From contig VIIQ02000051.1 of the NCBI GenBank assembly GCA_007449985.2, forward strand, positions 372,001-436,000: a stretch of DNA of 64,000 nucleotides. The letters run 5' to 3'. Under the pieces are notes generated by a model. The model worked only from the letters and a program-made list of their open reading frames with translations, was not told the DNA's origin and made no database searches. This stretch comes from Desmodesmus armatus (lineage: Eukaryota > Chlorophyta > Chlorophyceae > Sphaeropleales > Scenedesmaceae). Positions 1,130 to 50,893 of the stretch are shown piece by piece (position 1 is the stretch's first letter; each line of letters begins with the position of its first letter). A program made the translations under genes and the position numbers.

Positions 1130-4100
1130 CAGACCAAAACTATTTTTACTTGCAACCTGACGAGCTGAACATACATGTCTGCATGTCACTAGCAGAGGCC
1201 AGTACCCAAAGCACTGCTGCCACCAGTGGCCCCTGCCCCTGCATTGGCTTGCTCTTGGATGCCGTGCCCTGCCCTGCCCCACCCCTACCCTGTCCCTCCG
1301 TGTCCTGCCCTTTCCTGCCCCACCCCGACCTGCCCTGCCCTGCCCTGCCCTAAGCTGCCTCCTGACCCCCCCCTACCCACCTGCCCAGTACGGTCCCCAC
1401 CCCCGGTCCCGCCCTGTCCCGCTCACTTTGTGTACAGGTCCTCCAGCCGCTGCGCCACTGTAGGTGAGCCTGGTTTGCTGTACTGCTCTGCTGCCATCTC
1501 AGCAAAGGCTGCTGCTGCTGCCACACCATCCTTGTCCTGCAAACAGCACAGAAATTGCCACAGACACAGGTAAAATCGAGAGTACCGCTCAGCAGTGAAA
1601 GTATCCACTTGGAACACCCCCCCCCCCAGTTTGGTCCCTCGACAACAAGCCCCCCGCCCCTGGATCACCCAGCCTGCTGCTTGCACCCTCAATCACCACG
1701 CCAAGACTGAACCAAACAAACCCCATGACCAGCATTTACTGCGGCACCCCTCTTAGATCACTCCCATGTCAGCGTGCTGTAGTGTTTGCACCACTGTCAC
1801 AGCACGCTGCCTGTGAGCTTGTCCCTCTCTGGCTCAATCAGACCACCAAGCCCACTGCCCTGCTCCCTCACTCACCATGCCCACGTCAGGGAACATAAAG
1901 CCAATCGCCTCCTCAAATGCAAACAGCACCTTCAGGCCCTGTGCCTGCCGGGCCTTTGCAATGTTGCCCAGCCACTTGAACCCTGTTAGGGTCTGCTCAA
2001 ATGTAAAGCCCTCGACCGCTGCCATGGCCCCTAGCGCTGTTGAGCTTACAGCTGAGGCCAGCATGATGCACTGGCTGGCAGGCACCTGGGAGGGGGTGAC
2101 GGACACACATATGCATTCAAGTTGCTGCTTTGAACAGATATATCGCATGAACTAAGTTGCTCTCTGAACGGACTGAAAGGAACAGGGGTGAGCTTTGTTG
2201 TACATTACTGCATGCAGGTCCACTGCAGTGCATGTCCACAACGAGGCACTTTGGTTGCTACCTATGCAGTGATCACACTAGGAAGAATCGTTGGCTGTCG
2301 GTACCTCTGGGTGCTTCTCCTTGAAGTTCTGCCACACCCAGTCCGCCAACAGCAGCCCGATGTCATTGCCTGCATTGGCAGCCAACATCAGCACAGTGAA
2401 GCAGGACAGTCCGTTCAACGCAACACATCGCACACGACAGCACAGCACAGCACAGACACGCATCTGCGCTGCCATACCTTCGGTGCCTCAGCTGCTGCAT
2501 GCATTGGCTCTAGACAGACTGCCCAAACACCTCCGGTCTGACTCTGCACTGTGCCTGCAGACTGTAACGTTGCCGTCAGATGCTGCCACAACTGTCGACA
2601 TCTGCAGCGGTACAGCCATGAAGCACTGACGCCAACGCCTAGTGCAGCATCCCTACCGAACGTCTGTACCAACATCCGTACCTGAAAATGTTACAAAGTT
2701 TCCAGAGCCGCTGCCGTCCGCGTTCATGACCTGCTCTGCCGCTGCTAGCCTGTCAGCATCAGGGTCATTGGCCACCACCAGGCGCACGTTGTTGGCAGTG
2801 GCTGCAGCAACAGGGTCACGGGTCGGCAGTGAGCTCCAAGCCTTAGGCTGCAACGCATGTCAATACCACCAGCTGTCATCTTGCCGTCACACACGCCAAG
2901 CTCCATTCCCTGATGTCCAAGCTCTTCGTTACAATCAACACTGGCACATCAAACAGCCACGATCAGCCGCTGCACATCATACCATTCCCCAAAGCGCTGT
3001 TCATTCAGCCCTTCAAGGAGTTTTAGGGTTTAGGGTTCCCTAAACCCTAACCCCAAACCCTAAAGGAGTCCCTCTGCTGCCCCGCCCACCTGTGTCAAAG
3101 GCCATCTGCCAGGTGCCCTCACCCTCCTCCGGGTTTGGGAACACCACTGTAGGGAAGTCGGGGTCCGGCTGCGCCTGGGCCTCAACAACCAATGGCTGGG
3201 GAAGGTTGAACTCCTGCAATAATGGAGTTTAGGTCCAGGGTTTAGGCCTCCACATGGTTTGGGGGTCAGGTTTGTGTGAGGCTGAGCTTGAAGGCAACTG
3301 TCAGAGTGAGGGGAGCACTCACTGAAACCCTTCACACTACTCCCCAGGCCTTGCTCCATGTTACATTTGTTGCCATGAAGCTGGAGAGCTCAGGCCAGCC
3401 ATATACTGATGTCACGGAGATGTGGAGGCAAACCAGAAGAAACTACTACCATAAACACCCCTAAACCCTGTGCTGATCCTAGCCTCAACAACCAAGGGCT
3501 GGGGAAGGTTCAACTCCTGCATTGTCGGCCAAGGGTCAGGGCGTGGGCCAGCAAAGGGCCGTGGGTTCAGGTTGGTGTGAGGTCGAGCGTGAGGACAACT
3601 GTCAGAGTGATGGTGAGCGCGCACTAAAACCCTTCACACTACTCCCCGGGGCTTGCTCGAGAGCTCACGCCAGCGATGCACTTAAACCACGGAGATGGGA
3701 GGCAAACCAGACGTCACTACTACAACAAACACCCCTCAACCCTGTGCTGGCCATGGCCTCTACAACCAAGGGCTGGGGAAGGTTGAACGCCTGCGTTGCA
3801 GGGCCAGGTTGACGGCCAGGGTTTGGGCAGCACAGGGTTTAGGAGACAGAGTTGGATGGGGTTGGGCAGGGTTAGTATGCGGCTGAGGCAAGCCTTGCCT
3901 CCGAAAGTCGGAGTGAGGGTAACAGAGAACTTCAACCCGCCGCACTGTTTGACATACGCATTTTGGTTTGCAAAATGCCTGGACCTCAACAACCAAGGGC
4001 TGGGGAAGGTTGAACTCCTGCATTGTTGGGCCAGAATCAGGTCGAAGGTTTAGGCCGGCACAGGGTTTTGGGGTCAGGGTTTGGCTCAGGGTCGAGGTCA

Positions 4101-7036
4101 GGTTCGGTGAGGCTGAGCGCGAGGGCGTATGTAAGAGTGAGGGTCAGTGCGCGCTGATACCCGCAACACTGCTCACCAACCTATATCCATGGACTGTCAC
4201 TGTTGCACAACATGCACTCAGGCTGTTTGAGCGCTGGCCAACTACATTGACGCATGCATGACGACTCATGCGCGTGCTACATAGCGCGGCACCAATAAGC
4301 TGACAGTGCTGCAGGCCCGCACGTCGCACAGGACATCAACATGCCTGATAATCGCCTCTCTGGAAACACACTCATCCCATCAACTCCAACGTCATTTGCA
4401 ACACACCTTGAAGGCTCGCAGCACAAACTTGCCCCCCACGCCATGCAGCGGCGTATACACAGCTTGCGCAGCTGCCGCATTTGCCTCAGCACTGCGCATC
4501 AGCAGGTTGGCCGTGAGCTTGCTGTAGTAACTCTCAGCAATCTGCTGCGTGGGGTCATACACCAGATCAGCTGGAAGCTGTGCGGGGAGCTCCCACAGCT
4601 CCAGGTTGCGCTCGATGGAAGCTGCGATGCCGGCGTCATGCGGCGGGATGATCTGACAGCCGTTGCCCCAGTACACCTACAGGAAACACGCAAGAAAGGC
4701 AGGGCTTTTGAAAAGGGGAGCCAGGCAGCTTGCACTGTGTGTGAAGGAACAAAAGAAAGTGGTGACTGTAGCATCATTTGGCATGTCCCAGCTTGGCAAG
4801 GCCAGCCAGAGCATATTTGAACAAGCACAAGGACTCATCGCTACTGGCGCCAGATCGCCGGTGGTCCAAAACGCGCGCACTGTGACAAGCGTTCCAATGA
4901 CAGGCCAGCGCAGCAGCACCAGTGTTACAAGTGAAAGGCTGTTGCTTGTCAGCTTGCCATGCTGTTGCGTCAAATTGTCAGGCTGTTGCAGCAGAATGTC
5001 AGGCTGCTACAGCACGTTGTCATGCTGTTGTAGCACGTTGTCAGGCTGTTGCAGCAACCAGTGACGCGCTGTCAGGCCAGCACAGTCAACCAGCTCCACC
5101 TCCAGCCCCACACCTCCTGGTATAGGGGTGCTACGCTTATCTCACTGGTGAGGCTCTGCCTCGGACCCCCGGCAGTTGGGTCAGCCTGATTGCTGTGTGT
5201 GAGGCCAGCTGGTGGGAGTGCGACAGAATACTGACACTATTGGATTCCGGCAAACTCCACCTCTGCGTAGCCCTTGGGCAGCTGCACCTTTGGGTCAATG
5301 GCCAGGTTGCAGGACACGAGGGTGCCCTGGTAAAACCCAATAAAAACGTCAACCAGCCCCACCTTGTATCCGTTGTACTCCTTGGTGTTGTGTGATGCAG
5401 TGACCATGATGCCAGCAGCACAGCCCAGCAGCGCAACACCAGCAGCAACAAAGGGCGTGGGCACAAAGTCCTGAGGCAGGGCAACCTGCAGGCCACAGCA
5501 GTATACACAGCAGCAGGCAGTCAGCAGGCCTCAGAAGGACGGTATGATGATCACAAAGCCAAGTGTGAGGGCCTGGCCACTCCTCCCTTGCGCAACGTTA
5601 CACGTCACAGGGGGTTGGTACGGCTGGTCAGATGTCCAAGTGGGCGCGATGACAGCATCCGGGGAGGGGGCGGGATGGGGGGTGAGGGGCAGAACTGGGG
5701 GCAGAGGGCTGCATGGCATTGTGGTGCTGGGGCACAAGCACACACAGCTCGTGCAGCAAGAGGGTTGCAAGACAGCTTCACTCCCCCCCCCCCCCCCCGG
5801 GCCCGGGTGACAAAGACCAAACAACAGCAGGCAACAAGGCGATGGCCAGTGTGTCAGAGATTGGGCGTGGCTGCTTCTGCAAGACTCACCTTGATGCCTT
5901 GTGATGTGAAGACAGCTGCAGCCAGCTCCGCATAAGCCTTGGAGTTATAGCGGGCATCAAACCCTGTGCGGCAACAAAACATGCAGCCGTTTCCAAGCCA
6001 TTGGGGAGAACAGAGCTGTTGCCACGCTGTCTGCAGTCTGCAATGCACCTGCCTCAAGCCTGTACTTTCTGCAGATCATCATATACATCAGACACGGTTT
6101 TTGGACAGGCTGGTGCACTCGCACTGTCAAAGGAGTGAAGTGATGACCACCTCTCAAACCCTCAGCTGCACCATACATCACTGTGTGTTGCAATCATTGT
6201 CGCCATGTTGGTAGCAAATCTTGGCAGCCTGCTGCTGCAGTAACCACAGCACAGCACAGCACAGCACATCATAGCGTGCCACAGCAGGGCACTGTTGTCG
6301 TTGATTGCCAATGATGACACCATTTTGCAGCTGCTTACCAATGATGACACCATTTTGCAGCAGCTGCTGTGGTGCCTGCTGCTGCAGGTACTTCGCAAGG
6401 CCCTGTGTGGTCTGCTGTATGGTGACAGGGTTCATGCGGTTGAACCCAGGACCCATCTTGGCACGCAGGCCAGCAGTACCTATAGTGATGCAGGGGGGGG
6501 GGTCAAGAAGGGCAAATCAGTGTCCCGCAATATACAAGGGTGGGTGTGCGTGCAGATGGAGCAGACTAGCTGTCGTTACATGCGACGCAATTAAACAAGC
6601 TTGACGCTGGGCAGCTGCTGGTGTGCGTAAGGCATGCATTTATGGTGGTGTGTGGTCAAGTTGCTGGTTGTACCCACCCTTCAGACCAGGCGGGGGGGGG
6701 GGGTCCAGTCCAGTCCAGTCCAGTCCAGTCCAGTACAGTACACTCACCAAATTCCAGCCGCTGGCACATCAGCTCCTTGAGTTCGGCGTGTGAATTGCTG
6801 TCGAGCATGCCCTGCACCTTGGCCCTGGATGCAGCATCCTTGTCAAACCGCAGCCACTCTGTGACCTGCTGCTGCACCTGCTCCAGTTCAGGGGTGCTGG
6901 CAGCTGCTGCTGAAGCCGGGGTGGGCTGCATTCTGCGGTTGTTATGGACTGGTGCTGTAAGCGGTGGGCTGGAGGCTACGCTGGGGTTCTGGCGTGGCCG
7001 GAGTGAGTTGGGCTTTGCTCCAAGTTGGGAAGCCAT
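319..7036 (-). CDS. PGM2: PGM2-type phosphoglucomutase / phosphopentomutase, 12 exons
   Basis: Likely interconverts hexose- or pentose-1-phosphates and -5/6-phosphates in the cytosol. Exons on the minus strand: 7036-6748, 6479-6339, 5963-5890, 5485-5363, 4676-4407, 3213-3090, 2801-2682, 2369-2305, 2085-1876, 1536-1427, 1079-977 and 620-319. The predicted protein is ~643 aa, near the usual PGM2 length. Visible motifs: GLRAKMGPGFNRMN near the start, the phospho-serine loop TASHNT (Ser ~199), the metal loop NDPDADR (~352-358), ETLTGFKW-like EQTLTGFKW, FAFEEAIGF, and a C-terminal ATEPKLKYY. The loop has Thr where TASHNP is usual, and SATEPK replaces the common SGTEPK. The last exon changes frame near 505: VTFF in one frame continues as FEGGGALTLR in another, so one T seems to be missing from a short T run. 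Start chosen: the first ATG of the frame leading into conserved sequence. It is divergent from the OPR-like gene. Confidence 0.88.
1083..1127. repeat. (CAG)15 tract at the acceptor of PGM2 exon 11
   Basis: Fifteen CAG units on the plus strand read as (CTG)15 in the sense of the gene. They end at the TAG acceptor whose exon begins at 1079, so the tract fills the place of the polypyrimidine stretch of that intron. Confidence 0.95.
3021..3064. repeat. Interstitial telomere-like TTTAGGG/CCCTAAA repeat
   Basis: Two TTTAGGG-like units meet CCCTAAA-like units head to head, inside the PGM2 intron between exons 6 and 7 and ~25 bases from the exon 6 donor. TTTAGGG is the plant-type and common green-algal telomere unit. 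It could be a repair scar or a slippage product rather than an old telomere. Confidence 0.75.
3180..4200. repeat. Four tandem copies of the 5' edge of PGM2 exon 6 plus intron
   Basis: The real exon 6 starts at 3213 (minus) with EFNLPQPLVVEA. The same ~40-base exon edge, preceded by a GCAG acceptor, recurs at about 3482-3525, 3758-3800 and 3984-4025, each followed by related G-rich intron sequence. Spacing is 226-300 bases. The extra copies soon diverge from coding sequence, so they look like decayed partial exon duplicates. Confidence 0.85.
5140..5225. repeat. Dispersed ~85-base intronic repeat, copy 1
   Basis: This resembles 12345-12430 in an intron of the neighbouring gene. Both share GGTGAGGCTCTGCCT-like and CGGCAGT-like blocks in the same order and in the same plus orientation. 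It may be a short mobile or dispersed element. Only two copies are visible here. Confidence 0.45.
6308..6360. repeat. Tandem duplication of the 3' edge of PGM2 exon 2
   Basis: A 23-base block occurs at 6308-6330 and 6338-6360. In sense orientation the first copy met ends ATTG|GTAAG, which is the donor fixed by the next exon (GFDAR). The second copy has GGCAATC, so its donor is lost. Both copies would read LQNGVIIG. Confidence 0.85.
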
Positions 7037-7500: not shown

Positions 7501-8938
7501 ATGAGGGCAACTCCTTTGTCCAGACTGCAGAGCGGCAACAGGGTAGCTGCAGTCAGACAGCCCCTGGTATCAGCTATTGTGAGTGCTGCTGCTGTTGTGG
7601 GCATGGCACCAGAGCCAGCACTTTTCACCACATCTGTCGGAGTACCGAGTACCGTCTTCATAATGTGCGTTGTTTACCATGTTCTGTTTCTGTTTCTGTT
7701 TCTGCAGGGCTTTCAATGTGGCAGCAGGACAGTTGTTGGCAGGCAGCAGCAGCAGCTGCAGCAGCAGCAGCAGCACTCTGCTGTCCCTCGCCTAGCAGCC
7801 GCGTCTGCTGCTGACAGCTCAGCTGCTCCCGCCTCTTCAGCCCCCCAACAGCCCCTCAGCAGCAGTACTGCACAGCCTGGTGCTACTGCTGCTGCTGCTG
7901 CTGATCCAGCTGCTCTCAATGGCGCTGGTGTGTTGGATGCAGCGTCAGGGCCCCTCTCACCAGAGGCCATGCTTCGCATGCAGCTCCAAATGCAGATGCA
8001 GATGCAAACTCAAATGCAGGCGCAGATGCAGGCACAGATGCAGCAGATGGCGGCTATGCAGCAGCAGTATGCAGACAACATGCAGCGCATGCAGGCACAG
8101 ATGCAGGCCATGCAAGCTATGCTGGCAGGGCAGGCTGCTGCTGGTGCTGCTGCCCCAGCTGCTGCTGCTGCTGCTGCGGAAGAGGCGGCTGCAGCGACAA
8201 GCCAGGCAGCTGAGGCTCCCGTACTCCCTCTAGCAGCTGCAGCAGGCCCAGCAGCACCATCGATTGTTGAAGAGCAGCAAGTAGCTGCAGCAGCAGCTCC
8301 AGCCGCAGTCCCAGCTGTAGCACCAGTGGCAGCTAGTGCGCATCAGCAACAGGCTACAGCGTCTGAAACTCAACAGGAGGCAGTCCCTGCAGCAGCTGAA
8401 CCATCTTCAACTCCTGCTGCCACCGCTGCTCGACCAGCAGTTGCAGCCGATGCCGATGCTGCCACTGCTGCTGTCGCAAACCAAGCAGGGTCCAGTACCA
8501 GCGGCAGCAGCAGTAAGCTACAGGCCAGGCCTGTACAGCCAAAGCAGAAGCAGCAGAAGCCAAATTTGGGTGCGCCCACAGCCCAGTCAGCAACAGAAAG
8601 CAGAGCATCAGCAGCCACAGCAGCCACAACAGCCCCTACCAGCAGCAGCAGCAGCATGCAGGAGCAGCTCACAAAAGTGCAGGCCATGAATGCAGCAGTG
8701 GCTCAACTGCTGGCATCAAAGCAAGCCACCCCTTCTGCAGCAGACACAGCAACCCCCAATGCTGCTGGTCACTCCCCGACAGCAGACACAGCTGCTGCCG
8801 CTGCTGCCGCCGCCGCCGCCGCCGCAGCAGCAGCCGCCGCCAGGGTTGCAGCCGCCAAAGCTGCTGCAGTGGTGAAGCCTGCCGCCGCTCCTGCTGCGCC
8901 CAAAGCAGCAGCAAAGCAGCCATCCCAGTCACGACCAC

Positions 8939-8973
<35 letters not shown>

Positions 8974-17827: not shown

Positions 17828-18758
17828 GGGCTGCCTGGCTGTGATTGCAGTGGGTATGTGTACCAGAGGTGTACAGCATGTGCAGTTGGGTGCGGTCGGT
17901 GTTGGTGCTGACCATGGTGGGGTTGTGCCCTTTGGCACTCTTGACCCTATTAGTGTGTTGTGATTATGTTCTGTTGTCATGTGAAATCCTCAGGGGTCAG
18001 CTTGTTCACGTCAGTTGGGACCGGGAAAGCTGAGTCTGCATGTTGTTCTGTTGTCATGTTCTTGATGTCATGTTGTGTGCTGAATTACGTGGTAATCATG
18101 GTGCAGGCAAGCATGCATGGTGCATGATCGGTTTGGATTGATATCTCGGCAAAGATTCTGGTACAGCGTATACTAGAAGAAGATCCTGATACAGCCCATA
18201 ACAGTTACGAGCCCATACCAGCCCATACCAGCAGCATCTCTGGCCCTGGTGCCCAACGAGGATCACTCAGACATTTGCAAAGCCTTCCCACAGAACCAGA
18301 CTTCCTTTCGGCGCAATCAATGTCCTCCCACACTCAGAAGTCCAGCGGCTCGGAGCTCACAATCAGACCTCAGTGTCCAGTGGAGTCCAGCCGGAAAGGA
18401 AAGCTCATTCCATGCAACTCCCCACGTTGTTCTTGAATATCGGTACGTGTAGACCTACCACAGTGGGCGGACAGGGCCGAAGCTGGTGACACCAGCTGAC
18501 GTCAGTTTCAAACCTGTTTGAAAGCTGTTACAGAACATGGCCTGGGAAGTCCTCAGAAGGAATGTCGCAGGTGCAACGTTCAAATTTCTTGTCTGAGTGC
18601 AGCTGTGGTGTAGGAACCTCCCGCAAACGCATGTTAGAAGACAGTAGGCGCTGATCACTGTTCTGTTGTTGTGGATTTCCACTAGCTGGGCAGAACTCCT
18701 CTGTGTTTCTGCACACGCTTTCGCAAACGTCCTGAAGTCAAACAGTCACCTGGAACCC
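17828..18758. other. Intergenic / UTR between OPR-like and TZF genes
   Basis: Both genes run on the plus strand, so this holds the 3' UTR of the first and the promoter and 5' UTR of the second. A short direct repeat of an AGCCCATACC unit lies near 18212-18232. An upstream in-frame ATG at 18666 would add 31 residues to the TZF protein. I see no other gene. Confidence 0.5.
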
Positions 18759-26200: not shown

Positions 26201-29200
26201 CTTACAGTCGAGTGCCGTACAGTACAGCACAGGACAGTAAAATTGTTTGCAAGGGACCCAGGTGACCTGTCAGACCGACCAAGTCATCAATGTCAGCGTT
26301 GCTGAGCAACCCACATACAACCCAGATGGCCACGGTTTTTGTAGCAGGGGCCAGACACCCAGATGCAGACCAGTTTTACCCCATGACATTGCAGGTACCA
26401 TCTTGTTGATGTCCACTGACTGCTCTGTCTGCTTCTTGTTGCATTCACTGTCTGCCAGGTCCACCCGTCAGATGTTGCAGCCATCATCCTTGAGCCAGTG
26501 CTGCCTGTGCCATGTGCTGCCAAACTGGTTTTCTCCCCTTTTTTCCTCAAACCACTGTTGGTGCTGTGCAGCATGCTGACTGTTACACTTGTTACACACT
26601 GTTACTCTTGTGACTTCACAGGTTCACCCGTCAGATGTTGCTGCCATCATCCTTGAGCCAGTGCTGGGTGAGGGAGGATTCCTCACACCCCCACCTGGCT
26701 TCATGAAGGCCCTACGGCAGCTGGCTGACAAACACGGCATCATGGTCATTGCAGACGAGGTGCGGCCAGGTTGTTTTTTGGGGGGGGGGGGGCAGCTTTG
26801 GCATTACTGGACACAGGGAGAGAGTATTGCAGAATACAGGGGTAAAGATCCTGATGTTTTGTGTCTTGGTGTAGCTCACAAAGACACAGCACCAGCAAAC
26901 AGTGGGTACAAAAGCAGCAGGGGACATGTGTGTGCTGGGTGAGGGAGGCTTACTCACACCCCCTCCCCCACACGGCTGCATGAAGACACTACGGCAGTGG
27001 CAGACAAACACGTCATCATGATCATTGCAGACGAGGTGGGCCCAGTTTGATTTTTGTGTGGAGGGGGGCTTTGAGTTGGGGCAGTGGAGGAGGGGGTATG
27101 GCAAGGGACCTACAGGACGGCAGGTGTGTTGTGGTGCGTTCTGCCACAAGGCAATGATGATCAGACTGCAGACAAACACGGCACCATGCTCATTGCAGAC
27201 GAGGTGCGGGCGAGGAGTTTGCAAAATGTCACATGCCACCATACACCTTCTGCCCGCCCCCCCTCTGAGGATACATTTTCGAGCAGGGAAATAGCTTGGT
27301 GGCCGGCGCATTGTCGCTTGCTGCAACCATAGCACATGCCCACGATGCTTAAGGGCCCTGACGTTCATGTCCCCATGCTACCATGTTGCCATGCTACCCC
27401 CCCCCCCAACAGGTCCAGTCAGGTGCCGGGCGTACAGGCAAATGGTGGGGCCACCAACACTTCGATGGCATGCAGCCAGACATGCTCATATTCGCCAAGG
27501 GCATCGCAAGCGGCTACCCCTTTGCCGGTGAGTGCACAGGGTGCTTGTGGATACCCCACGCTGGCAATGATGGGCCCACTTGGCTCTGGATGCACGTAGA
27601 CCGCAGCACATACGGGTGTGGCTGTGTCAAGTGTCATAACGTACAGCAGAACCATTTGCAGAATGGCTGAGCAGTCTTACACATTGGTCCCTTGTCGTCT
27701 CAGTTATGTTTCTAGTCGACGGAAACAGACCAGAAACATAAGTTGTCTGTGATGATGTGACAGACCACTAAGACCGTCTGTGACCGATGTGGTAAGCGGG
27801 GAACGAACCGCACAGTGTTGGCACACAAGGCTGTGCGCACTCCTGCACACTGAGGCACCACGTGTCACCTCCTTGTGTGTAATTTGCTGATGAATACAAC
27901 AGTCGGGTAACCAAACAGGCTGCGCAGTGCATCAACGGGCGCCTGCAAGGTGTCAGCACACAAAGCTGTCCGCAGTCCTGCACACTCAGGCAGCATGTGC
28001 CACCTCCTTTCGTGCATTATGTTGGTGAATAACCCTGAGTAACCCAAGAGGTTGCGCAGTGCATTATGCCAAGTCGGCAACGGGCGCCTGCATGTTGTCA
28101 GCACATAAGGTTGTGGACATAAGGTGGTGCACATAAGGTTGTGCCCTGCACACTCAGGCACTCAGGTTCATTTCCTTTCGTGTTTTTGCCGTTGTGGCTG
28201 CAGGCATTGCCACGCGTGAGCAGGACTTTGACAAGATGCAGGCAGGGACCATGGGCGGCACCTACGGGGGCAACGCAGTGGCGTGTGCAGCAGCAGTGGC
28301 TACGATACAGGTTGGTGCCTTAGAGGCCGTAGATCACAGGGCCATCGGTGGCGAGAAAGCCACTGATTGAGGAAGATTCAGTGGGTTGGTTGCCTTGGTT
28401 TGCAGCCTAGGTCTAGGTTTAGTGCTTAGTCCCCCGTGTGATAGGGGTTTGGTTTGGTTTGAGGGTTTGTAGGGTCTACGATGAACGGGGTCAGCAAGGG
28501 TCCAGCAGAACCTTGTCCATGTTTAGGGACTTGGCGCTATCATGTGGCTGTTACGGTACAGGTGCTGGGATGCCATCGCTGACAGGTTGTGCTGCTGTGT
28601 GTTATTCCCGCGTTGTTGCAGGCGATAGAGGCAGACGGGATGCTGGAGAATGCTACACAGAGAGGAGCGCAGCTGATGAAGGGACTGGTCAAGCTGGCAG
28701 CCAAGTAAGACAGTTGATGTGTGCTTGTCTTTAGGACTAAGTCTGCAGCAGTGGCTTGCTAGAAGTAGCTGGGATGGTGTCCCAGTGGCGAAGCGGCATC
28801 AATATCACCTCCTGTGTGGTGTGAGTGATTGCACTGCCGCAGCAGGAGCTCTGTACCTTGCAAATGGCCGCATTGTTTGCATATGTGGCATTGCTGCTGC
28901 AGGTATCCAATCATTGATGTGCGTGGGCGCGGCCTGATGGTTGGCGTCGAGTTTGGCGGCACTGACAGCAGCGAGCGGCTCAAACCAGAGAAGGGAGTAG
29001 CCATGGTAAGCCAGGGCGCTCGGGTGCGCATCATGGAGTGCTTGGCCCGTTTTCCATCGTGCAAGCAGCGGCATTGTTCATGTTGACTACCCCTATTGGT
29101 CTGTGCAGCGTCGTCACTGGGGATCTTTCCTCTGTGAATGCGACACGTAGTAAGGTGCACCTTCGTATGTGTGATTCTGCGTCAACTTCATCTGCGGAGC

Positions 29201-31404: not shown

Positions 31405-31478
<74 letters not shown>

Positions 31479-33800
31479 GTCCCACAAACAGAGTGAGAGG
31501 CATGGGTGAGTGAGGCATAGGTGTGTAGGTCGTGCATGTTTGAGGGACGCTACAACAAAGCAATGCAAGGTACAGTCAAACATACTCAAGCCACCAGCAT
31601 ACCAAGACACAGCACAGTTAAGAGGTGGAAGCACCTGCTGGCTTTATCATGCATTGTCTGCTAGTGTTGCCGAACAGCAAACCTATCCACAAACCCACGA
31701 GTGTGCAGTTGCTGCACCCTGGCTTTTTTGATGCTGCACCCTTTTCATAATACATTGCACATGGATAGTTGTTATCCACACTAAACCCCCAACTAGGCAA
31801 ACATATGCAAAACCCTAAACCCGAACCAGGCAAACAGCAACTCCTCTCACCTGTTGCCTGCTGCAGCAGCAGCGTCGCCACCAGCTGCTGCCCCGCCTGC
31901 TGCTGCCCCAGCCCCTCCTCCCTTCACTGATGCAATGGCTGCTGGTAGGTCGTCCATGTGGCTGAACAGCCAGTCACCTGCACGCTCAACATTGCCGCCT
32001 GCAGCAGAAGGGAGGCAGGCAGGAAGGGGGGCCGGACAGGTGAAACAGCCATTTACATCAAAGTACAGTACGTTGATGCAGCTGGCAGTCAGCGTGCATC
32101 CAGCCCCCCCCCCCAAAAACACACACAGAGCCTGCAACCCCCTACTCGTCCAAGTGTCGTATACACAAAGCCAACGTTCCCCCCCCCCCCACCGAGACAC
32201 CCACCTGTTGCTGTGAGTGCTGCCTCTGCTGCATCCACCTGAAAGCCCATCGCCGTCAACATGGACACCTGCACACAACAGCAGAGCAGCAGGCAGCACC
32301 AGCAGCATACAAGCAACAGCAGCACTGCGGTCAGCAGAAAAAATGAGTAAAGGAAACCTGCAGCAGCTCGAGACTTTTGAAATTGCTTTGAAATGCGGAC
32401 CAATCTTGTTGACAGGTGGAGGCGTAGGCTATGCATTGCGCCGAAGGCGCCAATGCTGATGAATCCCAACTTAGAGTTACAGCAAAGCTGACAACTGCTG
32501 CGCCTTCTTCACACATAACAACAGCAGACACATCCACCACGCAGACATCCACCCCCAGTCACCCACCTTTTCAGGGTCCTGCTGCTGTGCTGCTGCTGCT
32601 GCTGGAGCCGCCGTCGCCGCTGCCGCTGCTGCTGCTGCTGGGTCAGGCAGGGGGTCGTTGAACTCTGGATCCTCCATGTGCCCAAACACCCACTCCATGG
32701 CAGCCTCAGCATTGTTGTTGCCGGTTGCCAGCGCTGCATCAACACACAGCACAGCACAGCACAGCACATGGGGGCCAACAGGGCTCTGCTTGGCACCACA
32801 CTACACAATGCAGCAATCAAATAGACATCTATATCGCAGCAATGATGGCCAAACACCCACTCTATGGCAGCCTCAGAATTGTTGTTGCCAGTTGCCAGCG
32901 CTGCATCAACACACAGCACAGCACAGCACAGCACATGGGGCTGACAGGGCATGATTCTGCACAGCGCAGCAGTTGGGATGGATTCTAGATAGCATGGCAG
33001 CCTCAGCATTGTTGTGCCGGGCATGCAGGTGCACGATCAAGAGCGTCCCTCAAGGACCCCACCCAAACACCCCCAACCCCCTCCCTCACCTGCCCGCTTG
33101 CTCCCGTTTTCAGAGAAGCCCATAGACACAAGCTGCGCCACAATGGTAGCATCCGGCACAGGCGCAGCCGCCGCCGCCGCTGCTGCCCCCGCCGCCGCTC
33201 CGCCGCCGGCTGCTGCTGCTGCTGCTGGTTCCTCTGGCTGTAGCTGTTCCCCCTCAGCTGGCCCACTGCTGCGCAGTGATTCTAGATCCAACTGCTCTGG
33301 CATGGGTACCTCCACCTCCAACTTCTTGGCCGTCCAGTCCTCTGAGAGACACAAGCACAGCACAGCAGAGCACAGCACATGGGCAGCCAGAGCTTGAGGG
33401 AAAACATCAAAAACTCTCTAGCTTCCTTAGGGGTCCCAGCAACAGGACCTGAGCATATCGCATGGAAAGCAGTGACAAGCAGTTACGGCTGAGACAGCGT
33501 GAAAGCAAACATCCATTCCACTGTGAACCGGCATATCGTTGGCGAGGCGGTCGGCCACCCGTTTAGCCGCTAGGGCATGTGGCCATCGTCTGAAATATTG
33601 CCCACCCAATGCCACTCATACCCAGGGTCTGAGATGTGGATTTCATAAACCACCAACCAAGCCAAAACCCTGATGCCCCACCTGCCACATAGTAGCGTTT
33701 GAGGGCGATGGCCAGTACAGGGGGGAAGCTGGCAAAGCGGCTGCGGCGTGTGGCTGTGCTCTTGCCACCAACTGCTGCTGAGTGGTAGTCATTCAACAGT

Positions 33801-33895
<95 letters not shown>

Positions 33896-36800
33896 GACTT
33901 CGGTCTGGTCAGTGTTGAATAGGACAGTCAGACAGTCTGTATTGATGGCTGATCGGCAAAACCTGACACCACAAGTTTTTTGCCACCAACTACTGATGAG
34001 TGATCGTCATTCAACACCTGTGCACGGCAGCAGCAGCAGCAGGGACATCGGTTTGGTCACTGTTAGTATTCGATATGACACTCAGACAGGCTGTATGTGT
34101 TGTGGCTGATCGGCAAAACCTGACACCACAAGTCTTTATTTGCCGCCAACTGCGGCCGAGTGGTAGTCATTCAACACCTGTGCATGAGTTATCCTTCCAA
34201 GACTTACCCAGCCATCCTTCCGAGACAGTCCTATAGCCAGCCCGCTCACCTCTGCAGCTGCAAACATGTTAATGCAGGCCTCAAAAGGCACCACAGGCAG
34301 CACTGGTGTGTCACTGCTGCCGCCCTGACTGCCCTTGTCGCTAGCAGCCGCCACGGCAGCAGCTGCTGCTGCTGCTGCATCACCGTCCCCTGGCAGGATG
34401 ATGTTTGCTGCAGGGTCGGTGGCGCTGTCTAAGCTGGTGTCAGCACCAATGTAGGCGGATGCCTGCGGGGCAGGGCAGTACATAACAGTATATGTTAGTA
34501 GAGTGAAAGGCCCCTTGGGTCGCGTCGGTGGCGCTGTCTAGGCTGGTGTCAGCACCAATGTAGGCGGATGCCTGCGGGGCAGGGCAGGGCAGCACAGCAC
34601 AGTACGGTACAGTAAAGTACAGTACAGTACAGCTCAGTACAGTACAGTGAGGGGCAACACAGTTGTTGAGTCGGGTCGGTGACGCTATCTGGGCTGATGT
34701 CAGCACCAATGTAGGCGGACGCCTGTGGGTGAGGGCAGGGCAGTACAATAAAGTAAAGTACAGTAAGGGGCAACACAGTTGATAGGTCGGGTCAGTGGCG
34801 CTGTCTAGGCTGATGTGAGCACCGATGTCGGTGGACGCCTGCAGATAGAGAAGTACAGTTCAGTACAGTACAGTGCAGTACAGTGCAGTACAGTTCAGTA
34901 CAGTACAAGCACATTACTGTAAGGGGCGACACAGTTATTGGGTCAGGTCGGTGGCGCTGTTTAGGCTGGTGTGCACCAATGTAGGCGGAAGCCTGGAGAG
35001 AAAGTTGGCAGCATGTGCAGTGCAGTGGACGGCTGTGTGGGCTTGTGCGTGCGCACACACTGTAGAGTGTGGGCCTATTTACGGTGCCGACTTCAAAGTC
35101 AGAACAATACTGAGCATGGTGTAATGGTCAACAGAGGTGCCAGGCGCTGATGGGCTGTGCAGCAAGCTGTAGGTGTACATGTAAGGTGGACGCTATGTCA
35201 GCCTTTCCCCTTTCACATACCCTGCCCCTTACCCCCCACCCTCACCTGCTCCTCTTTGAGCTTCTGCCTATTTGCCTCCCCTCCCCTACCCCTGCCCCTC
35301 CCCCCCCCCCCCACACACACACCTGTTCCTCTTGAGCTTCTGCCTCTTTGCCTCCCTTGCCCCTCCCCTGCCCTGCCCTTCCCTGCCGCCCCCCCCCCCT
35401 CCCCTCCACACTCACATGTGCATGCATGTGACTCGCATGTATCCCATATCTTCAACACACACGCACCTGCTCCTCCTTGAGCTTCTGCCTCTTTGCCTCC
35501 CTCTCCCTGTATGTGGCCACCGCCTCCTGGTTGATCGCAGCCTCAACAGGGATGTTGAGCGACAGAACAGTGTTCACACTGCGCCTGCACACACAAACAC
35601 AAACGCGACACATTGCTCGCTGTTCAGCCCCACAAACCTGCCCCTCTGACCCCCTGCACACCCTGGTGAGGACCCCCCCCCCCGCTCGGCTGATTCAGAG
35701 TGACTGGTTCCAATATTTGTGTGAGCATACGACCCAGGGCACACTGCTTGCTGTGCACCTCTCACAAGTCGACCCCCACACTCCTGTCAAACCACCGTGT
35801 TTCCGCTTGTCCTTCCTTACACCAGCCAACACGCCCACCCACCAGGCTACCCAAAGGCCTCAAACACTCGACTGTCACTAGCATTGTGATGGCCCCGACC
35901 TCGCTGTTCACAAAGAAGCCAACACAAGCACCCCCCCCCCCAGCCACCTGTAGCTGACACAGTTGCTGGTGTGGCACTCCCATGCACGAGCCAACCCCCC
36001 TCCACCTCACAACAGCCAACACAAGCACCCCCCCCAACCACCTGTAGCTGACACAGTTGCTGGTGTGGCACCTCCATACACGAGCGGACCCCCCACCCCC
36101 ACCCCCAAATGTCACAACAGAAACCACAACACCCCCCACCCCCCCACCTGTAGCTGACACAGTTGCTGGTGTGGCACTGTATCCTGTCCTCCAGCTGGAA
36201 GTTGAACATGGCAGGGCTCAGGGGGGCGTCGGCAGGGAGGGCCAGGCGCTGCGCGTTGCCATGCTCAGCACGACTCATAAGCTCTAGCACGTGGGTCATG
36301 TACTCCATGGCGTCCTGAGGTAGGAGTGTGGGCGGGAAAAGAGAGGTGATGGGGGTGTGAGTGTGTGTGTGTGTGTGTGGGGGGGGGTGATGATTGTGGG
36401 CGTTTGCAGTTTCGACATGACCCCGTGATTGCATAACCCCAACACGAAACAGCCTCCCTCGCTCGCCAGGTAGTGATGGAAACAAAGGTCTAGAGTTGTC
36501 TGACTGAGCAGTCTGACTCAGCGGTATGACTAATCAGTAGAAGCCCGTCAAAATCAGGCTGCACGTACCTGCTGTCGGCCAGAGGAGAACTCTGGGTGTC
36601 CTTTGCCCACAAGCGACTTGAATGATGTGGGTCGCACACTGTTGGCCTCCTGAGCAGCGGTCTCAGCACGACCACCTCCTGCACACCACACACCCACAAC
36701 ACATCACACAACCGTTATTCTCACTCTTGCTGTTTCTGTTTTTTGTTTCGTGTTTCTGTCTTGCTGTTTCTGCATCTGCCACTGCTGCAAGACATTGAGA

Positions 36801-39800
36801 ACCTGACCTGCAAACATAGCGGCAAGTGCCAACATGGCTAGTGAACTAGAAGCGCCACATGTAATGTTGAACAGAACGCCACTGGTGTAATGGTAGATAC
36901 AAACACAACGCCCCCTCTAGCTCCCATGTAGTAAATATCTGCCAGTAACTGCCGACAACTGCCATGCATCAACCAGCGCACCTGCATGTGCAGCGTCCAG
37001 TGGCTCCCCGGCTGCTGCCACACCAGCAGCAGCATCAGCAGCCGCAACTGCTGCCCCGTCACTGGTGTCCATAGGGTCGGAGCCACCAGGCCCTGCTGCT
37101 GCTGAGGGCTCTATTGCTGTTGCTGGCGACGGAGTTGGCTTGCCTGTCTTACCTTGAACCAACGCCACACCCACCTGCAAGGAGCAAACATCAGCATCGG
37201 CATCAACATAAGCACAACAGCAGCAATGAGCATCATCGAGCATCGAACCAATCCAAAATGCGACATACACGAGAGTGGTGGGCCGTGATGGCAGCTGGAC
37301 TGTTTCACACTGAAGGAGTGAACCTGGAGAATAAGGGGTACTGGTAATGATGCTAAACCAACAGCAGCTCTCAGAAAGACCCTCCCTCATCCCCACCGTT
37401 GGCTGGCGATCTACACAGAGCAGACGCAAATTTTGGCTAGCACAGCAGAGCACATGGCACATATGCAAGGCTTCTCTGAGTTTGAACTTCAGGGTTTGGG
37501 CCCCGTGGATGTGAAGTTCAGGGTTTTGGTCTGCTGGGTATGAAATTCAGGGTTTTGGTGTCGTTGAATTTGAATTAAGGGGGTGGGATATGCATGGTTC
37601 CGTGTAAAACCCTCGCACCTTGGAGAGCTGTGAGGGCAGGTCGTCTGCAGGGTTTGCTGGTGCGCTGCTGAAGATGGCTCCTGCATTGTTGACATAGCGC
37701 TCCGACAGCTCAGGCAGTGAGAACAACACCTGCACACAACGCAGCATGAACAAGGTGAATGCTTTGATCAGCATCCCAGCCAACGTGCTTGAACAGCCCT
37801 CCCTGTTAGATCACACCATACCGACATACGGTGTTGATCAGGCCACCATTATCCCTCTAGCAGGGAGCCCAAAGCCTGCAAGCAACAGCGCCTAGTGCGC
37901 AGCGCACTGGTGGGCGCAACATCAAACAGTCAGCTGCACTCGACCAACCTAGAGGATGCCCTACCCAAAACAAAAAACAGTGCAGGGATGTCAGCAATCA
38001 AGTTGCCAACTTGCCCCAGCACAATGCTACCATTCATTGAGCACCATCGACACCCACCACCAACACCACCCACCAAACAGCCAACAATACATTCAAGCTC
38101 TCAACCAACCCCTTGCACCCGCCAAAGCAACTAAGCCGCTCATCTTCCCAAGCTGCAACCAAGCTACTAATCCTACCAAGCTGCTGATCCTCTCAACTTC
38201 TCCCTCACCTGCCGCACACTGTCATGTAGCAGCACAATGCTACATATCATCAAACAACCGACAAGGCATTCAAGCTAACAACCAACCCCCCACAAGTCAA
38301 AAACCATCAAGCTGCTATTTGCCCCAAAGCCTCCCTCACCTGCAGCACGCTGTTCATGTAGCAGCTGTTACCCAGGTTGACCAGGCCCACGTGACCCGGC
38401 CCACTCAACTGAGTGAGCTTGGCCCCACCACCAAAACCACCCACCAAACAGCCAAGAAAGCAACCAAGCTCTCAACCAACCCCTACACCCGCCGAAGCAC
38501 TCATGCTGTTTATCCTGCTAAGCTGCAACATTTGCGGACTTGCTCACCTGCAGCACGCTGTTCATGTAGCAGCTGTTACCCAGGTTGACCAGGCCCACGT
38601 GACCCGGCCCACTCAACTGAGTGAGCTTGGCCCCAGCTTCAGTGAGGGCACTGAACTCATAGGCAACGTTCATGTCGATCTCCAGCTCAGCCATGGTCTT
38701 GGCAGTCTTCTCCATCTGCAGGCATAAACCACGCCATATCAATTGATTTTAGGGGTTTTGTGGTCATCACTAGCATCACACAACTTATAATCTTGCTCCT
38801 GTTCCACGTATCTGCCTGTATCTACGCACAATTTGCTTTGCTTCTTCTCAGAGCTCACCAATTTCAATCCCTACTCAGTTTTCAAAAGGGAGTACAACAA
38901 CTCACACATCTCACCCGCCCCCACATGCCCCAGTCCCTAACCGACCTGCAGCATGTTGATGCCCCAGTGCGCCAGGTGCGTGTTCAGCTCAGGGTCTGTC
39001 ACCATCTCGTCCTCATCAGCTGCAGCAACAGCAGCAACAGTACACTTCAGAAGAGTAGAGTAGGGTCGAGTAGAGTACAGCGGAGTACAATCAAGCAGAG
39101 TACAGCAGAGTACAAGTAACCTCAGCACTATCCAGCGAGCCAAAGGCTCATGTTGAAACAACAGAAACAGCAGCAAAGCAGTATCAGCAAGGCAATGCTA
39201 ACAGAGTGTGTGTATGACCTTGAGTGCTATACAATGCCATGCCTATTCCACTTCCCAACAGCCCCACAACAGGGGCTGTGCATCAGAAGCCCGGCCACAG
39301 CAACAGCCCAGCAACAGGCAGACGACCCTCAACAGCTCAAGCCTTGCTGGCTATCTAAATTTGATACTGAGACAGTGTCCCCAGTGACTGCACTACTCTG
39401 TACTGTACTGTGTTATCACTGCACTGTACTGTACTGTTACTGTACTGCACCATACAGTACCTTCCCAAAAGTCAGATTGGTGCGTACCTGCGTAGCTGTA
39501 CACGTCAGCACCTGCGGGAGTGATGGTGCCCAGCTTGACCACCAGTGGGTACTTGCGGCCTGTGGCCTCGTAGTGCCGCAGCGCTGAGCCGTTGCCACCC
39601 GTGCCGTCAGCGTACTGCAGCATGCAAGGGATGACACACCAGTTGTAATGCAATGATACTGATGCTATCTGTGCCGTCAACATACTGCAGGATGCATCAC
39701 AGCGGTTGTGACGCAATGACACCAACAGCCTGCTGCAAGGATACTGATGCAACCCATGCTGTCAGCATACTGCAGGATGCAAGGATGACACAGCGGTTGT

Positions 39801-42800
39801 GACGCAATGACACCAACAGCCTGCTGCAAGGATACTGATGCAACCCATGCTGTCAGCATACTGCAGGATGCAAGGATGACACAGCGGTTGTGACGCAATG
39901 ACACCAACAGCCTGCTGCAAGGATACTGATGCAACCCATGCTGTCAGCATACTGCAGGATGCAAGGATGACACAGCGGTTGTGACGCAATGACACCAACA
40001 GCCTGCTGCAAGGATACTGATGCAACCCATGCTGTCAGCATACTGCAGGATGCAAGGATGACACAGCGGTTGTGACGCAATGACACCAACAGTCTGATGC
40101 ATCATAACAGTTGTGATGCAATCGGATGCAAGGGCGCTTTATGAGCTCGTGATGAAACAGTCATGTATGGCGCATCGTGCAGCGGAAGCCCACACAATCA
40201 CCCCCTTGTGTCTGGAGTTGCTCGCACGCAATTATCTTACCCCTCTGACGACGGAACACAGTACCACATGTAAACCCTTTCCCTCTGATAACAAAAGACA
40301 GCACTAGGATAGTTCCCCAGCAAGCCGCACCTGTCGTCCAGACCCAATGTGGCCTGTGGACAGGTTGAGCCACAGGTTCTCCGTAACTCCTGTGTCATCA
40401 CAGCGCCAGTCTGCGGGGTTTGGGCTGATCTTGCGGCCGTTGGTGATCTGCTCTAAGTCCTTGGCATACCTGGGGGGGGGGGGCGTGCACACAGTAGGTT
40501 TATTGCAGGGGATGATGCACACAATAGGGGATTGGCAGGGGATGCTGCACACTACAGGGGATTGGCAGGGGATGATGCACACGATAGGCTTGTTGCAGGG
40601 GATGATGCACACATTAGGTGATTGGCAGGGGATGATGCACACTGTAGGGGATTGGCAGGGGATGATGCACACAATAGGTTTATTGCAGGGGATGATGAAC
40701 ACAATAGGGGATTGGCAGGGGATGATGCACAAAATAGGGTTTTGGCAGGAGATGCTGCGCACAATAGAAGCTGGCCTGTTGTTAGGGGTTTCGACGGGGT
40801 CCTGCGGTGGTGACCAGGGCCTTGGGGGCCTTGCGGACTGTTTAGCCGGACTCCAGCTCAACAGTGCGCAAGGCCCCCAAGGCCCTGGTGACCACCGTAA
40901 GACCCCGCCGCAACCCCTACGACAGGCCAGCTTCTGCCCCTCCCACACTGGACTACTACCAGTGGGGCCTATCATCCATAGGCCATTGCCCTAGCCTTCG
41001 AGCATGCATGTGATGCGTTGTCCTTGAAGGATGCAAGGCCAGTGGGAGGAATCCTATGGCGTTACAATACAAAGGGGGTGTATCGGATTCTTTCATTCTT
41101 CTTTCTTTCTTGAACCACCGCCCCCATGGCTCTGTCTGCCACCGCGGACCCCGCCACCGCCATGACATGTTTTGGCAGGAGGGGCATGCCAAGGCTGAGG
41201 TTTTAGAGTTGTTGTGTTGGGTATAAAGGGTGTTCAAATGTGACGGTCACGCTGCTGCTGTGTTCGGGCAATATAGTTAATTAATTAATTGCAATATAAT
41301 AACTAATTAAATTGATATATTCAGGTTGACGCAAAGGGTGCCGGATGGGAGGTCAACAGCAACCCCTAGGCCTCCTGTCGAAAGCATGTCAGGTGTGACA
41401 AACTGTACCTCCCACTACCCCTGCTATTAGGTTGGCGGCTGATAGGAACAGTTCAGCGTCTGCTGAAACCCAACCATGACCGTTATGTCTGCCACATCTG
41501 TCTGTACACCACCCCACCAACAGCACGGAGTGCTGCATGGTGTCACTCTAGTTAGTTAGTCAACTACAGAGTGCAAGCCGTCCACTTTGCACAGCTGTGG
41601 AATGTAAGCTGTCCACTGACTTTATGTGACTGTCATGGCTTCCCATTATGGAAAGTGATTATATCAGCCACATCCACTCACTGAGTTGACAGCTTACATC
41701 CCATAGCCGTGCAAATTGGACGGCCTGCACCCCACAGTACTAGTTGTGTGAGGGCCATCGTTCAGCACTCCTTCTGTTATGGCGCAGCTGTGGGGTGCAA
41801 GCTACCTATTTCACAAAGCTGTGAGGCTGTCTGCTGCACACACTGGTGTGGCATGCAAACTACAGCTGTCCACAAACCATCAGGTATGGGCCATAAGCCA
41901 TCACACTTTGAACACATATGCAGGCTGCAAACAGTCTGCTTCCCACAGCTATGGTGCAAAAGCTCAGCTGTTTGTAGACAGTAGCTACTTACTTGCTGAC
42001 CCTCCTTTCCTCCTCCCAAGCAGACACCTGTTCCATCTTGGTGGCCCCTTCATGAATCTGATGTCAAGGAGTGAAAGGCGGGGGGGGGGGGGGGGTGGTC
42101 GGGGAAAGGGGGGGTAAAAGCAATGGTGAGAAAGCGCATGCTTGCTTGAAGGAGGGGAGTCCCTGTGCTGCAGTAACCCAACCTGGCATGCGATGACACA
42201 CATCTCAACACTGGAACGCAGACCTTGAAACTTTGGACAGGTCACGAAGCCCTTCCCTCTCTTTCCATCAAATTGCACCCATAGTGCGCCCCCGTCCCCC
42301 CTCCCCAATCCCCCCCTCCTGAAACATAAATGCCACACCTGAACAGCATTGATGACATTCAGCACCAGCTCTGGCAGGTCAGGACATGGCAGTGGCACCT
42401 CCAGCCGCTGCTGCCCGGGCCCCTGCACCACCACCAGTGATGCTGACTGTTCCAGGGTATAGTCCTTCTGGTTCTCCAGCGCAAAACCGCCCTCGGTACC
42501 AAGGGCCAGCTTGCTGGGCTTGTTGGCTGCTGCTGCTGCACGCTCTGCTTTCTCGGCTTCTGTCAGTGGCACCTGGAGAGCAGCAGCGGGAGTATCAGCG
42601 GGACGGCGAGCAGAGGGTTGGTGGGAATGTGGTGTGTCAGGAGATGCAGGGACATGCATGCGGGTATGTGGCCTGAACCACACACCAAACCCCAGCACCA
42701 GCAGCTCTGGCATGCTGCGTGCTGACCATGGCTTGGACCTGCACGAATGCCTCACAAGCTGTCATGGCAATGCGAAACCTACGAGGCAGCACAGCTTGCA

Positions 42801-49700: not shown

Positions 49701-50893
49701 GCTGCTAGAGGCATCGTGGCGGTTGCAACTGCGCGCGTGTGGGCAGTGTGACGGCACATGCATGTGGTGTGATCATGATGGGACATGATGAGAGGAGAAA
49801 ACTCAGCGGTGGGTGCAGCATTCAGGGGATGTGGTCGCTGTCACTTGATCGGCTGCCAGCTGCAGCACATGCACGCATTTCCATGTGCATGCAGTTGTGT
49901 ACCCAGTGTGCCACATCCCCAAGGCAGTATGAGCAGTGCAATAATTTCAAAGTTGTTGGGAGTCCACGATACATTACACATGCGGCCACTGCATGACCTC
50001 ACCCAGCTATATGTTTCAAGACTATTTCCCCTACTCTCACCAGCAGTGGTCTGCACAATGACATTTTCAGCTGCATTGAGATGCCTTGACAGCAGCCCTG
50101 CCGCACCCAGGCCTTGAAACAGGCCGTAGCCAAGGATAGCAGACTGCAACGCAAGCACGGGGCATGTGTATGTAAGAGCGGAGGCCCAGGGGGCCGGGGG
50201 GGGGGGGGGGGGGGGGGGAAGGGGGGGGGGGGGAGGGCGCAACGATGTCAGTGTGGCTGACGCTGGTCTGTGCATGCTGTATGTTGCATCAGCTTGCTTG
50301 GACTCTACACTGTCCATCTGTATCATCTGGTGCTTATCCACACCCATCTATGCAATCTACAAAAGGCAAAACATTGCTGCTGCTGGGAGAGGCAGCTGTT
50401 GCATGAATGCCATTGGCATGTACGGTTGCTACAGCAGCTGACGAACTGTCTTTTTGTCGTCATGCTGCTGAGTAATATACTCAACAACATCCCGACCCCC
50501 CCCCCCCACCCCACCCACCCCCACCCCCACCTACAACCACCTCCCCTGCTCCAAACGCCCCCCCCCCCCCCCACCAAAGTCCCTGCATTGTGTACATACC
50601 CCCCCCCCCCCACCACCACCACCAAAGTCGCTGCATTGTGTACATACCCCCCCCCCCACCACCACCACCACCACCAAAGTCCCTGCATTGTGTACATACC
50701 CCCCCCCCCCCCACCACCACCACCAAAGTCGCTGCATTGTCTACACACATACCTGCAAGCTGCCCATGGTGACCCATCCTGTCTGCAGGCCAAAGTACGT
50801 GTTGGAGAAGCACAGCACTGCACCCACCAGCAGCCCAGCTGCGATAGCACGAACTGTGAGCACAGGGCCTGCTGCCCCTGTTTCTGCACTCAT
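43710..50893 (-). CDS. OPT-superfamily transporter, YGL114W-like, 10 exons
   Basis: Exons (minus): 50893-50753, 50143-50041, 49728-49193, 48048-47864, 47586-47444, 46910-46039, 45643-45545, 45195-45070, 44572-44513 and 44159-43710. Phases agree and give ~904 aa. OPT proteins are proton-coupled carriers of peptides or metal chelates. The family is marked by AIAAGLLVGAVLCFSNTYFG in TM1, LQTGWVTMGSLQSAILGYG, AENVIVQTTAVATATMPLAAG, VGIIPALGL, and RFPSGTATASVI, the conserved FPSGTA(T) motif. Later hydrophobic spans include GYVGQGMIMGPKTAWSMMAG, LVAVVVALLVALLAVRALG and GVGFAVGCYL. Two long Ser/Gly/Gln-rich loops (within exons 3 and 6) explain the extra length. The substrate is not predictable. The start at MSAETG is chosen because upstream the frame runs into a CA/GT repeat; an earlier start with Ser/Arg-rich sequence is possible. 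Confidence 0.85.
50196..50236. repeat. Long poly-G tract (two runs)
   Basis: Twenty or so G, an AA break, and a further ~13 G lie in intron 1 of the transporter; the sense strand is C-rich here. This is likely hard to sequence, and its true length is uncertain. Confidence 0.9.
50520..50760. repeat. ~50-base tandem repeat beginning at the transporter exon 1 donor
   Basis: Four units of CCACCACCACCAAAGTC.CTG followed by CATTGTGTACATACCCCC lie from the exon 1 donor (50753) into the intron. In sense orientation each unit contains a GTATGT donor-like and an ACAATGCAG acceptor-like sequence. Confidence 0.85.

Follow-up and report, generated by a model that had tools for sequence, protein, structure and literature searches.

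Exon-edge copies in Desmodesmus armatus introns probably stem from random local duplication filtered by selection

Why do the edges of exons recur inside the neighboring introns of a green alga? In a 64-kb stretch of the Desmodesmus armatus genome (64,000 nt of contig VIIQ02000051.1, referred to here as the window), self-comparison finds 12 junctions in three genes, PGM2-like, class-III aminotransferase and USP5/13-like deubiquitinase (USP), with partial copies in the neighboring intron (Table 1). An earlier note on this DNA had described exon edges copied into the adjacent intron at eleven listed exons, and such copies are present at all of them (exon numbers matched by position). Its count of at least four genes falls to three; the fourth candidate, at 50577-50748, repeats a donor and the intron start and contains no exon. 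In the present analysis duplication is local, its direction is outward from the exon, its placement is near random and the copies decay roughly neutrally. The probable explanation is random local duplication that is filtered by selection, with the copies absorbed into introns and no special attraction to splice sites.

Results

The window was analyzed together with 240 kb of sequence taken from contigs C1, C30, C60, C100 and C47, the last of these five being the contig that holds the window. The sample comprises nine blocks and 304 kb from a source genome of 115.8 Mb in 831 contigs; the added blocks are convenience picks and a non-random draw. Exons and introns were called by a self-written two-strand hidden Markov model (HMM) that was seeded with 34 exons chosen by eye in the three window genes and retrained on its own output. 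The HMM learned donors of the form CAG/GTGNGT and acceptors of the form TGCAG/G, and it called 511 donors and 510 acceptors. Repeats with a period of ≤6 were masked and junction tests were restricted to exons of ≥40 nt. A local high-scoring segment pair (HSP) was defined as a same-strand match with a score ≥24 within 2.5 kb, and comparison between unrelated blocks served as the control.

Local duplication is abundant, with 117 same-strand local HSPs in the 304 kb versus 7 in the control. The window is the densest block and holds 43 of the 117; the 20-kb block C47a has none. The copies lie on the same strand, mostly 100–300 bp apart, and the HSPs are 60–100% alike. Among non-redundant genic repeats 50/64 have an offset of <500 bp, and 45 of those 50 fall at 100–304 bp.

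The direction of copying was measured with a uniform test in which 30-base exon heads and tails were searched for local copies, with outward meaning the intron side. Exon heads were copied upstream in 18/360 cases versus downstream in 4/360 (p = 0.004), and exon tails were copied downstream in 16/367 versus upstream in 9/366 (p = 0.22); the head contrast alone is significant singly. Pooled outward copies outnumber inward copies (34/727 versus 13/726, p = 0.003), and the control copy rate is 1/1440 for heads and 0/1468 for tails. Outward copies occur at 12 of 167 ends in the window and at 22 of 560 elsewhere (p = 0.09); these 12 window ends are a different list from the 12 junctions found by self-comparison. 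The outward direction is as expected from tandem duplication of a unit across one junction in a gene that has to stay intact, which leaves the full exon in place and the spare edge on the intron side.

Two descriptions in the earlier note concern the form of the copies. The nearer copies were said to be the better preserved, which does not hold as a rule: of 10 exon ends with multiple copies, 2 have their best match in the nearest copy, 1 shows a tie and 7 match a more distant copy better (aligned lengths differ). For the PGM2-like acceptor copies, identity climbs with distance (0.89, 0.91 and 0.95). The remark that a whole exon is rarely copied is correct as a count (1 whole exon, 1 exon-intron-exon and 3 complex cases among 50) and marks nothing special. 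Random placement gives 6.4% whole exons, 1.5% exon-intron-exon and 3.0% complex cases, which is about the observed share, and whole-exon rarity was dropped as a mark of selection.

A shift null was used for the splice junctions, in which each repeat was moved 30–400 bp within genic sequence and crossing meant ≥10 bp over a junction. Junctions were crossed by 30 of the 64 repeats versus 26.6 ± 3.1 for shifted repeats. The count was 25/43 versus 20.6 (p = 0.08) for local repeats that are not exon-exon, and 15/29 versus 13.6 (p = 0.32) outside the window. The window alone, which was chosen for its striking look, gave 10/14 versus 6.9 (p = 0.06). The note's argument that ordinary satellites would not repeatedly fall on exon borders is not confirmed: the expected overlap is already about one-half, and the window also has pure intron repeats at 27810-28194 and 40486-40767.

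The copy rate of 30-mers across junctions (introns ≥200 bp) ranged from 1.8 to 6.4% without a clear step, and the donor profile is flat. Deep-intron 30-mers (introns ≥250 bp, both directions) were copied in 43/1005 cases versus the 34/727 outward exon ends (p = 0.72), and these ends were copied more than exon middles (9/508, p = 0.007). The idea that decoys are tolerated fits this result, in which outward exon-end copies are as common as intron-interior copies and commoner than exon-middle copies. Simulated random units with the observed offsets are ~30% edge-type and ~40% intron-only, an edge share of 0.43.

The earlier note had suggested that splice-site DNA may be a hotspot for local duplication. 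Exon borders would then be hit above other gene positions, for example via TGCAG/CAGGT microhomology. The crossing counts for the window and for the local non-exonic repeats lean toward this alternative, but the repeats outside the window cross junctions about as often as shifted ones, the donor profile has no peak and deep intron is copied as often as exon edges. A hotspot is therefore unlikely, and it was rejected because the shift null, the position profile and the class simulation gave at most a mild excess. The copy rate is about level from intron to exon edge and crossing is near the shift null. The junction is not special, or at most mildly so; given the size of this sample, a real excess as large as ~1.5-fold is possible.

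The divergence of the copies depends on how the pairs are found. Searching via the exon half gave 31 pairs, 18 of them with both halves homologous, and a divergence of 7.8% for exon versus 16.9% for intron (ratio 0.46). Searching via the intron half gave 16 pairs, 9 with both halves homologous, and 10.0% versus 12.1% (ratio 0.83). If the exon is fixed and its copy is free to change, we estimate this ratio at 0.5–0.65. The true ratio is between 0.46 and 0.83, a range that brackets the neutral expectation. A first ratio of 0.41 (0.30–0.55) from the exon-half search had made the exon part look far too conserved; the intron-half search gives ~0.8, which means that much of this is ascertainment. 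The copies decay roughly as free DNA. Intron halves have many more gaps than exon halves, and the intron flank is recognizably homologous in 22/44 measured pairs. Exon ends remain the last recognizable part because the intron half diverges from both sides and gains more gaps. In the exon-derived parts, 104/202 differences are at third codon positions (share 0.51), and our own estimates of the expected share are 0.78 if both copies are coding and 0.44 if the copy is neutral. The share exceeds 1/3 because the exon itself is constrained.

Across the 304 kb, 31 exon ends have 45 copies. Three junctions of two HMM exons that are themselves copies were excluded from the copy-decay, splice-dinucleotide, stop and divergence tests; the same three were kept in the uniform 30-base test, the junction profile, the shift null and the class simulation. 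The AG or GT is retained in 37/45 copies versus 38.8 expected from flank identity. Splicing at the copied site would bring in an in-frame stop in 37/45 cases and would add a length divisible by three in 14/45; most decoys would be harmful if used. The splice score of the copy equals or exceeds that of the real site in 18/45. Because these copies score at least as high, something besides strength must make the choice. The simplest candidate would be exon definition, since recognition of this type would explain how equally strong decoys are bypassed. Reed and Maniatis are said to have built duplicated splice-site competition constructs in 1986 in which the choice between equal tandem sites depended on context and proximity; those sites were engineered, whereas the competing sites here are natural and scattered through the genome.

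It is quite improbable that the copies are functional, that is, kept by selection as alternative acceptors, donors or exons. Such copies would account for the high splice scores, for exon parts that are 95–100% identical in some cases and for the third-position bias, but retention of AG/GT is not above expectation, stops are frequent, few insertions keep the frame and the third-position share is not near 0.78. Conserved functional copies are unsupported by the codon-position, splice-dinucleotide and stop tests. A decoy-site layer, in which equal-strength sites compete, send poison isoforms to decay and now and then replace a lost site (the acceptor of USP exon 33682-33904 seems to be one) while exon-bounded conversion refreshes some of them, is conceivable and improbable.

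The USP locus indicates which sites must be used. After four HMM exons (35246-35267, 35323-35372, 38340-38417 and 42684-42738) were removed by hand, a single frame runs through 20 of the 22 USP exons, beginning with 42339-42572 and ending at the stop. The encoded protein matches human USP5 (3ihp) with E = 6e-168 and a UCH domain is present in a piece of it. The best protein match of a 359-residue piece is from Tetradesmus obliquus (67% identity, 81% of the query covered), and the USP protein aligns with proteins labelled T. obliquus, Chrzof1, Monoraphidium minutum and Astrephomene gubernaculifera as far as these reach. Human USP5 is collinear across 4 of the 7 copied USP junctions (exons 39488, 38548, 36148 and 32567), and P0014 is collinear across the join of 35467-35584 with 34250-34462, which holds two further copied junctions. 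From these collinear homologues, the copies appear to be spliced out with the neighboring intron, and the exon-proximal site would have to be the one spliced. The fragment P0045, a relative's protein in one translated frame, hinted that the intron following the catalytic-Cys exon may be shorter there, and no conclusion was drawn from it.

A USP exon may have lost the acceptor that its copies retain. The model acceptor of exon 33682-33904 precedes a 31-unit GCA run (33801-33894), which is translated as poly-alanine and occupies the place where the ancestral acceptor seems to have stood. The copies in the intron before this exon seem to preserve the old acceptor, because both carry CACAG/GTGTTGAATGAC and P0014 reads E-VVDDYRS there. 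Further long CAG/GCA runs lie in introns beside exon ends at 1083-1129 and 31405-31477, and inside an exon model at 8942-8972.

Other haplotypes or dispersed copies were also considered. A search of USP 38200-38760 against its own genome, the one locus searched, gave 3 matches: the locus itself, one adjoining it and a 61-bp match of 85% elsewhere. For this region there are only local copies and one weak match.

Discussion

In the proposed mechanism, local same-strand duplication is frequent and copies stretches of ~100–300 bp (array units down to 30 bp) with no, or hardly any, regard to splice sites. Most of the duplications that alter the protein would be removed and those internal to an intron would survive. 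Duplications that include one exon end would survive as well: the exon stays complete, and the extra edge, an acceptor edge upstream of it or a donor edge downstream, can be removed as intron. The copies would then drift. With the edge of the exon held constant and change building up in both intron parts, the exon-derived part would stay recognizable longest, and the eye would see "exon edges."

Several observations weigh against this explanation. Whole-exon cases are not rarer than under random placement and give no sign of a selection filter, and the outward contrast is weaker outside the window (22/560 versus 11/559, p = 0.08). The exon structures are predictions of our own HMM. Exon-to-intron pairs exceed intron-intron pairs by 20 to 13 (20/33 versus 0.43, p = 0.05; outside the window 12 to 9, p = 0.20), a count that leaves out 10 edge-edge or whole-exon pairs and 7 exon-exon pairs. 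When the edge-edge and whole-exon pairs are counted, 30/43 involve exon ends versus 0.52 (p = 0.03; outside 20/29, p = 0.09); these ten pairs have exon in both copies and some are copies miscalled as exons. The earlier note had named the lack of a genome-wide excess of junctions inside repeats as refuting its view; in the 304-kb sample the crossing test came out mostly on the refuting side, and the exon-end share makes a mild excess possible. The acceptor profile has what looks like a mild peak of 6.4% at −10, and the lows are at −50 from the acceptor (1.8%) and +30 from the donor. The exon-end share and the mild acceptor peak also favor a hotspot; the exon-end excess can be explained because exon-derived DNA decays slower.

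The remaining points concern decay and the ends of the similarity. The third-position share is slightly above the neutral estimate of 0.44 (p = 0.03). HSP ends ≤6 bp from a junction on the exon side exceed those of shifted controls, with 15 versus 4.5 when all 64 repeats are taken (p = 0.0025), 9 versus 3.8 in the 43 local repeats and 8 versus 2.3 in the 29 repeats outside the window (p = 0.005); the window subset has 1 versus 1.2. Faster intron decay predicts HSP ends on the exon side of the junction, and a few cases are too sharp for comfort. In the 93-bp copy, 38335-38427 matches 38543-38635 at every base, 88/88 of them in the exon part, while the in-register intron flank is not recognizably alike; a neighboring intron pair is 82% alike.

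The excess of ends at junctions raises the alternative that gene conversion or an RNA/cDNA step, bounded by the splice junction and yielding a copy of exon only, has copied or refreshed some exon ends. The copies 26456-26503 and 38335-38427 end ≤5 nt from the junction and have 96–100% identity, as this alternative predicts, and these two exon ends may have been re-copied recently, through conversion or a further round of duplication. As a wider explanation, junction-bounded copying has a low probability: the intron flank is homologous in half of the measured pairs, intron gaps cut similarity early, and the copy at 26456 does not run on into the upstream exon, unlike an mRNA copy.

An assembly or gene-model artefact is very unlikely. 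At least three window HMM exons (38340-38417, 35323-35372 and 35246-35267) are plainly copies and some arrays are near-identical, but many copies differ by 5–30%, which misassembly does not produce, and collinear homology backs the USP model. Gene finders will miscall exon-edge copies as exons, an error made by our own HMM at these three or more places.

Random local duplication, the preferred explanation, places these copies with tandem, internal duplication: same-strand copies lie within a few hundred bp and the 30 units noted above cross splice junctions. In the potato RdRp gene, a tandem genomic duplication across an intron-exon boundary made a new intron with a cryptic donor (PeerJ 2016, PMC4974935). 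The copies here, in contrast, seem swallowed by an intron that was already there, in many cases more than once, and donor edges are also involved. Internal gene duplications are described as common and as interacting with splicing in work cited in PMC3443670 and PMC4974935, whose focus, as cited there, is on new introns; no new intron is claimed here. In human duplicated genes, internal tandem repeats at exon-intron boundaries alter intron extent and are often polymorphic (Genome Biol 2009, PMC2812944). The likeness is in the tandem repeats at exon-intron boundaries. The human cases were studied through paralogue transcripts, whereas the green-alga genes are known from DNA alone.

In Rogers-type intron gain by AGGT exonic duplication, a new intron arises within an exon that was once continuous. 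Compared by position, the copies here sit in introns, old or new, that flank the full exon. Introner elements would appear as alike copies in the introns of many unrelated genes, a pattern that the USP 38200-38760 search (one locus) did not return, and non-local similarity is low. The set as a whole lacks the pattern of tandem mutually exclusive exons, with 1 whole-exon case and 4 complex or exon-intron-exon cases among 50 and with stops in most copies; single cases may still qualify as tandem exon duplications of this kind. The T. obliquus genome paper (PMC5552973) does not treat exon-edge copying. No paper title reporting it in a scenedesmid was found, a weak negative with most subscription journals outside the search. 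Exon-edge copying is ordinary in mechanism and seemingly dense here, as judged within this alga.

The ~30 exon ends in 304 kb are a natural set of side-by-side splice sites with similar context. The USP homologues indicate which site must be used, and RNA reads could show how the green-alga spliceosome chooses between equal sites. Exon-edge copying also shows one way in which introns grow.

Features of the window and neighboring repeats

The PGM_PMM_II domain was found in the protein piece that covers PGM2-like exons 4407-4676 and 3090-3213, and the Aminotran_3 domain in the class-III aminotransferase piece. The copies and the contrast cases are collected in Table 1.

Table 1. Exon-edge copies, their source exons and contrast repeats in the window
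Feature	Position	Strand	Evidence
PGM2-like exon; source copy is acceptor edge ~3168-3213	3090..3213	-	gene model, PGM_PMM_II domain
Acceptor edge plus intron, three diverged copies within the upstream intron; junctions of the copies near 3516, 3790, 4017	3472..4191	-	self-comparison
Donor edge of PGM2-like exon (exon end ~6339), 30-bp tandem duplicate; GC replaces GT in outer copy	6308..6365	-	self-comparison
Copy of acceptor edge, aminotransferase exon 25229-25376	24943..25058	+	81% over 118 columns with 25180-25293
Copy of first 45 nt, aminotransferase exon 26622-26759; similarity begins 3 bp before exon	26456..26503	+	96% over 48 bp, 26456/26619
Aminotransferase exon, both ends copied outward	26622..26759	+	gene model, Aminotran_3
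Two donor-edge copies of aminotransferase exon 26622-26759	26932..27220	+	self-comparison, 26661/26932/27168
Pure intron local repeat, no exon contact (contrast case)	27810..28194	+	self-comparison
Two partial acceptor-edge copies, USP exon 32567-32733	32846..33020	-	94% over 66 bp, 97% over 29 bp
Acceptor-edge copies, USP exon 33682-33904; both with CACAG/GTGTTGAAT acceptor, exon without it beside 31-unit GCA run	33895..34184	-	self-comparison
Four acceptor-edge copies, USP exon 34250-34462; AG present in all	34463..35004	-	self-comparison
Two donor-edge copies, USP exon 35467-35584; GT present in both	35237..35372	-	self-comparison
Two donor-edge copies, USP exon 36148-36314	35908..36071	-	exon parts identical 31/31, 30/30
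Nested copies around donor edge, USP exon 38548-38715 (catalytic-Cys box)	38053..38529	-	self-comparison
91-bp array (4.5 copies, 98%) and more diverged copies with acceptor edge of USP exon 39488-39614	39593..40101	-	self-comparison
30-bp intron satellite adjoining, not reaching, an exon (contrast case)	40486..40767	-	self-comparison
~50-bp array of donor(-like) GTATGT plus intron start, without exon	50577..50748	-	self-comparison

Other features were seen in the same blocks. A large plus-strand gene model at 7501-20697 has long alanine- and glutamine-rich exons and a 2841-letter translation. A 1.2-kb direct duplication (58823-59963 and 62607-63799, 72%, ~3.8 kb apart) lies at the right end of the window. 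Block C60a contains a 260-bp tandem duplicate with 100% identity (L009:6107-6624) that is either very recent or an assembly effect. In block C30a (20247-22572; L007:247-2572), an array of ~250-bp units consists partly of predicted exons, and donor edges are copied at shifts of 247, 500 and 761.

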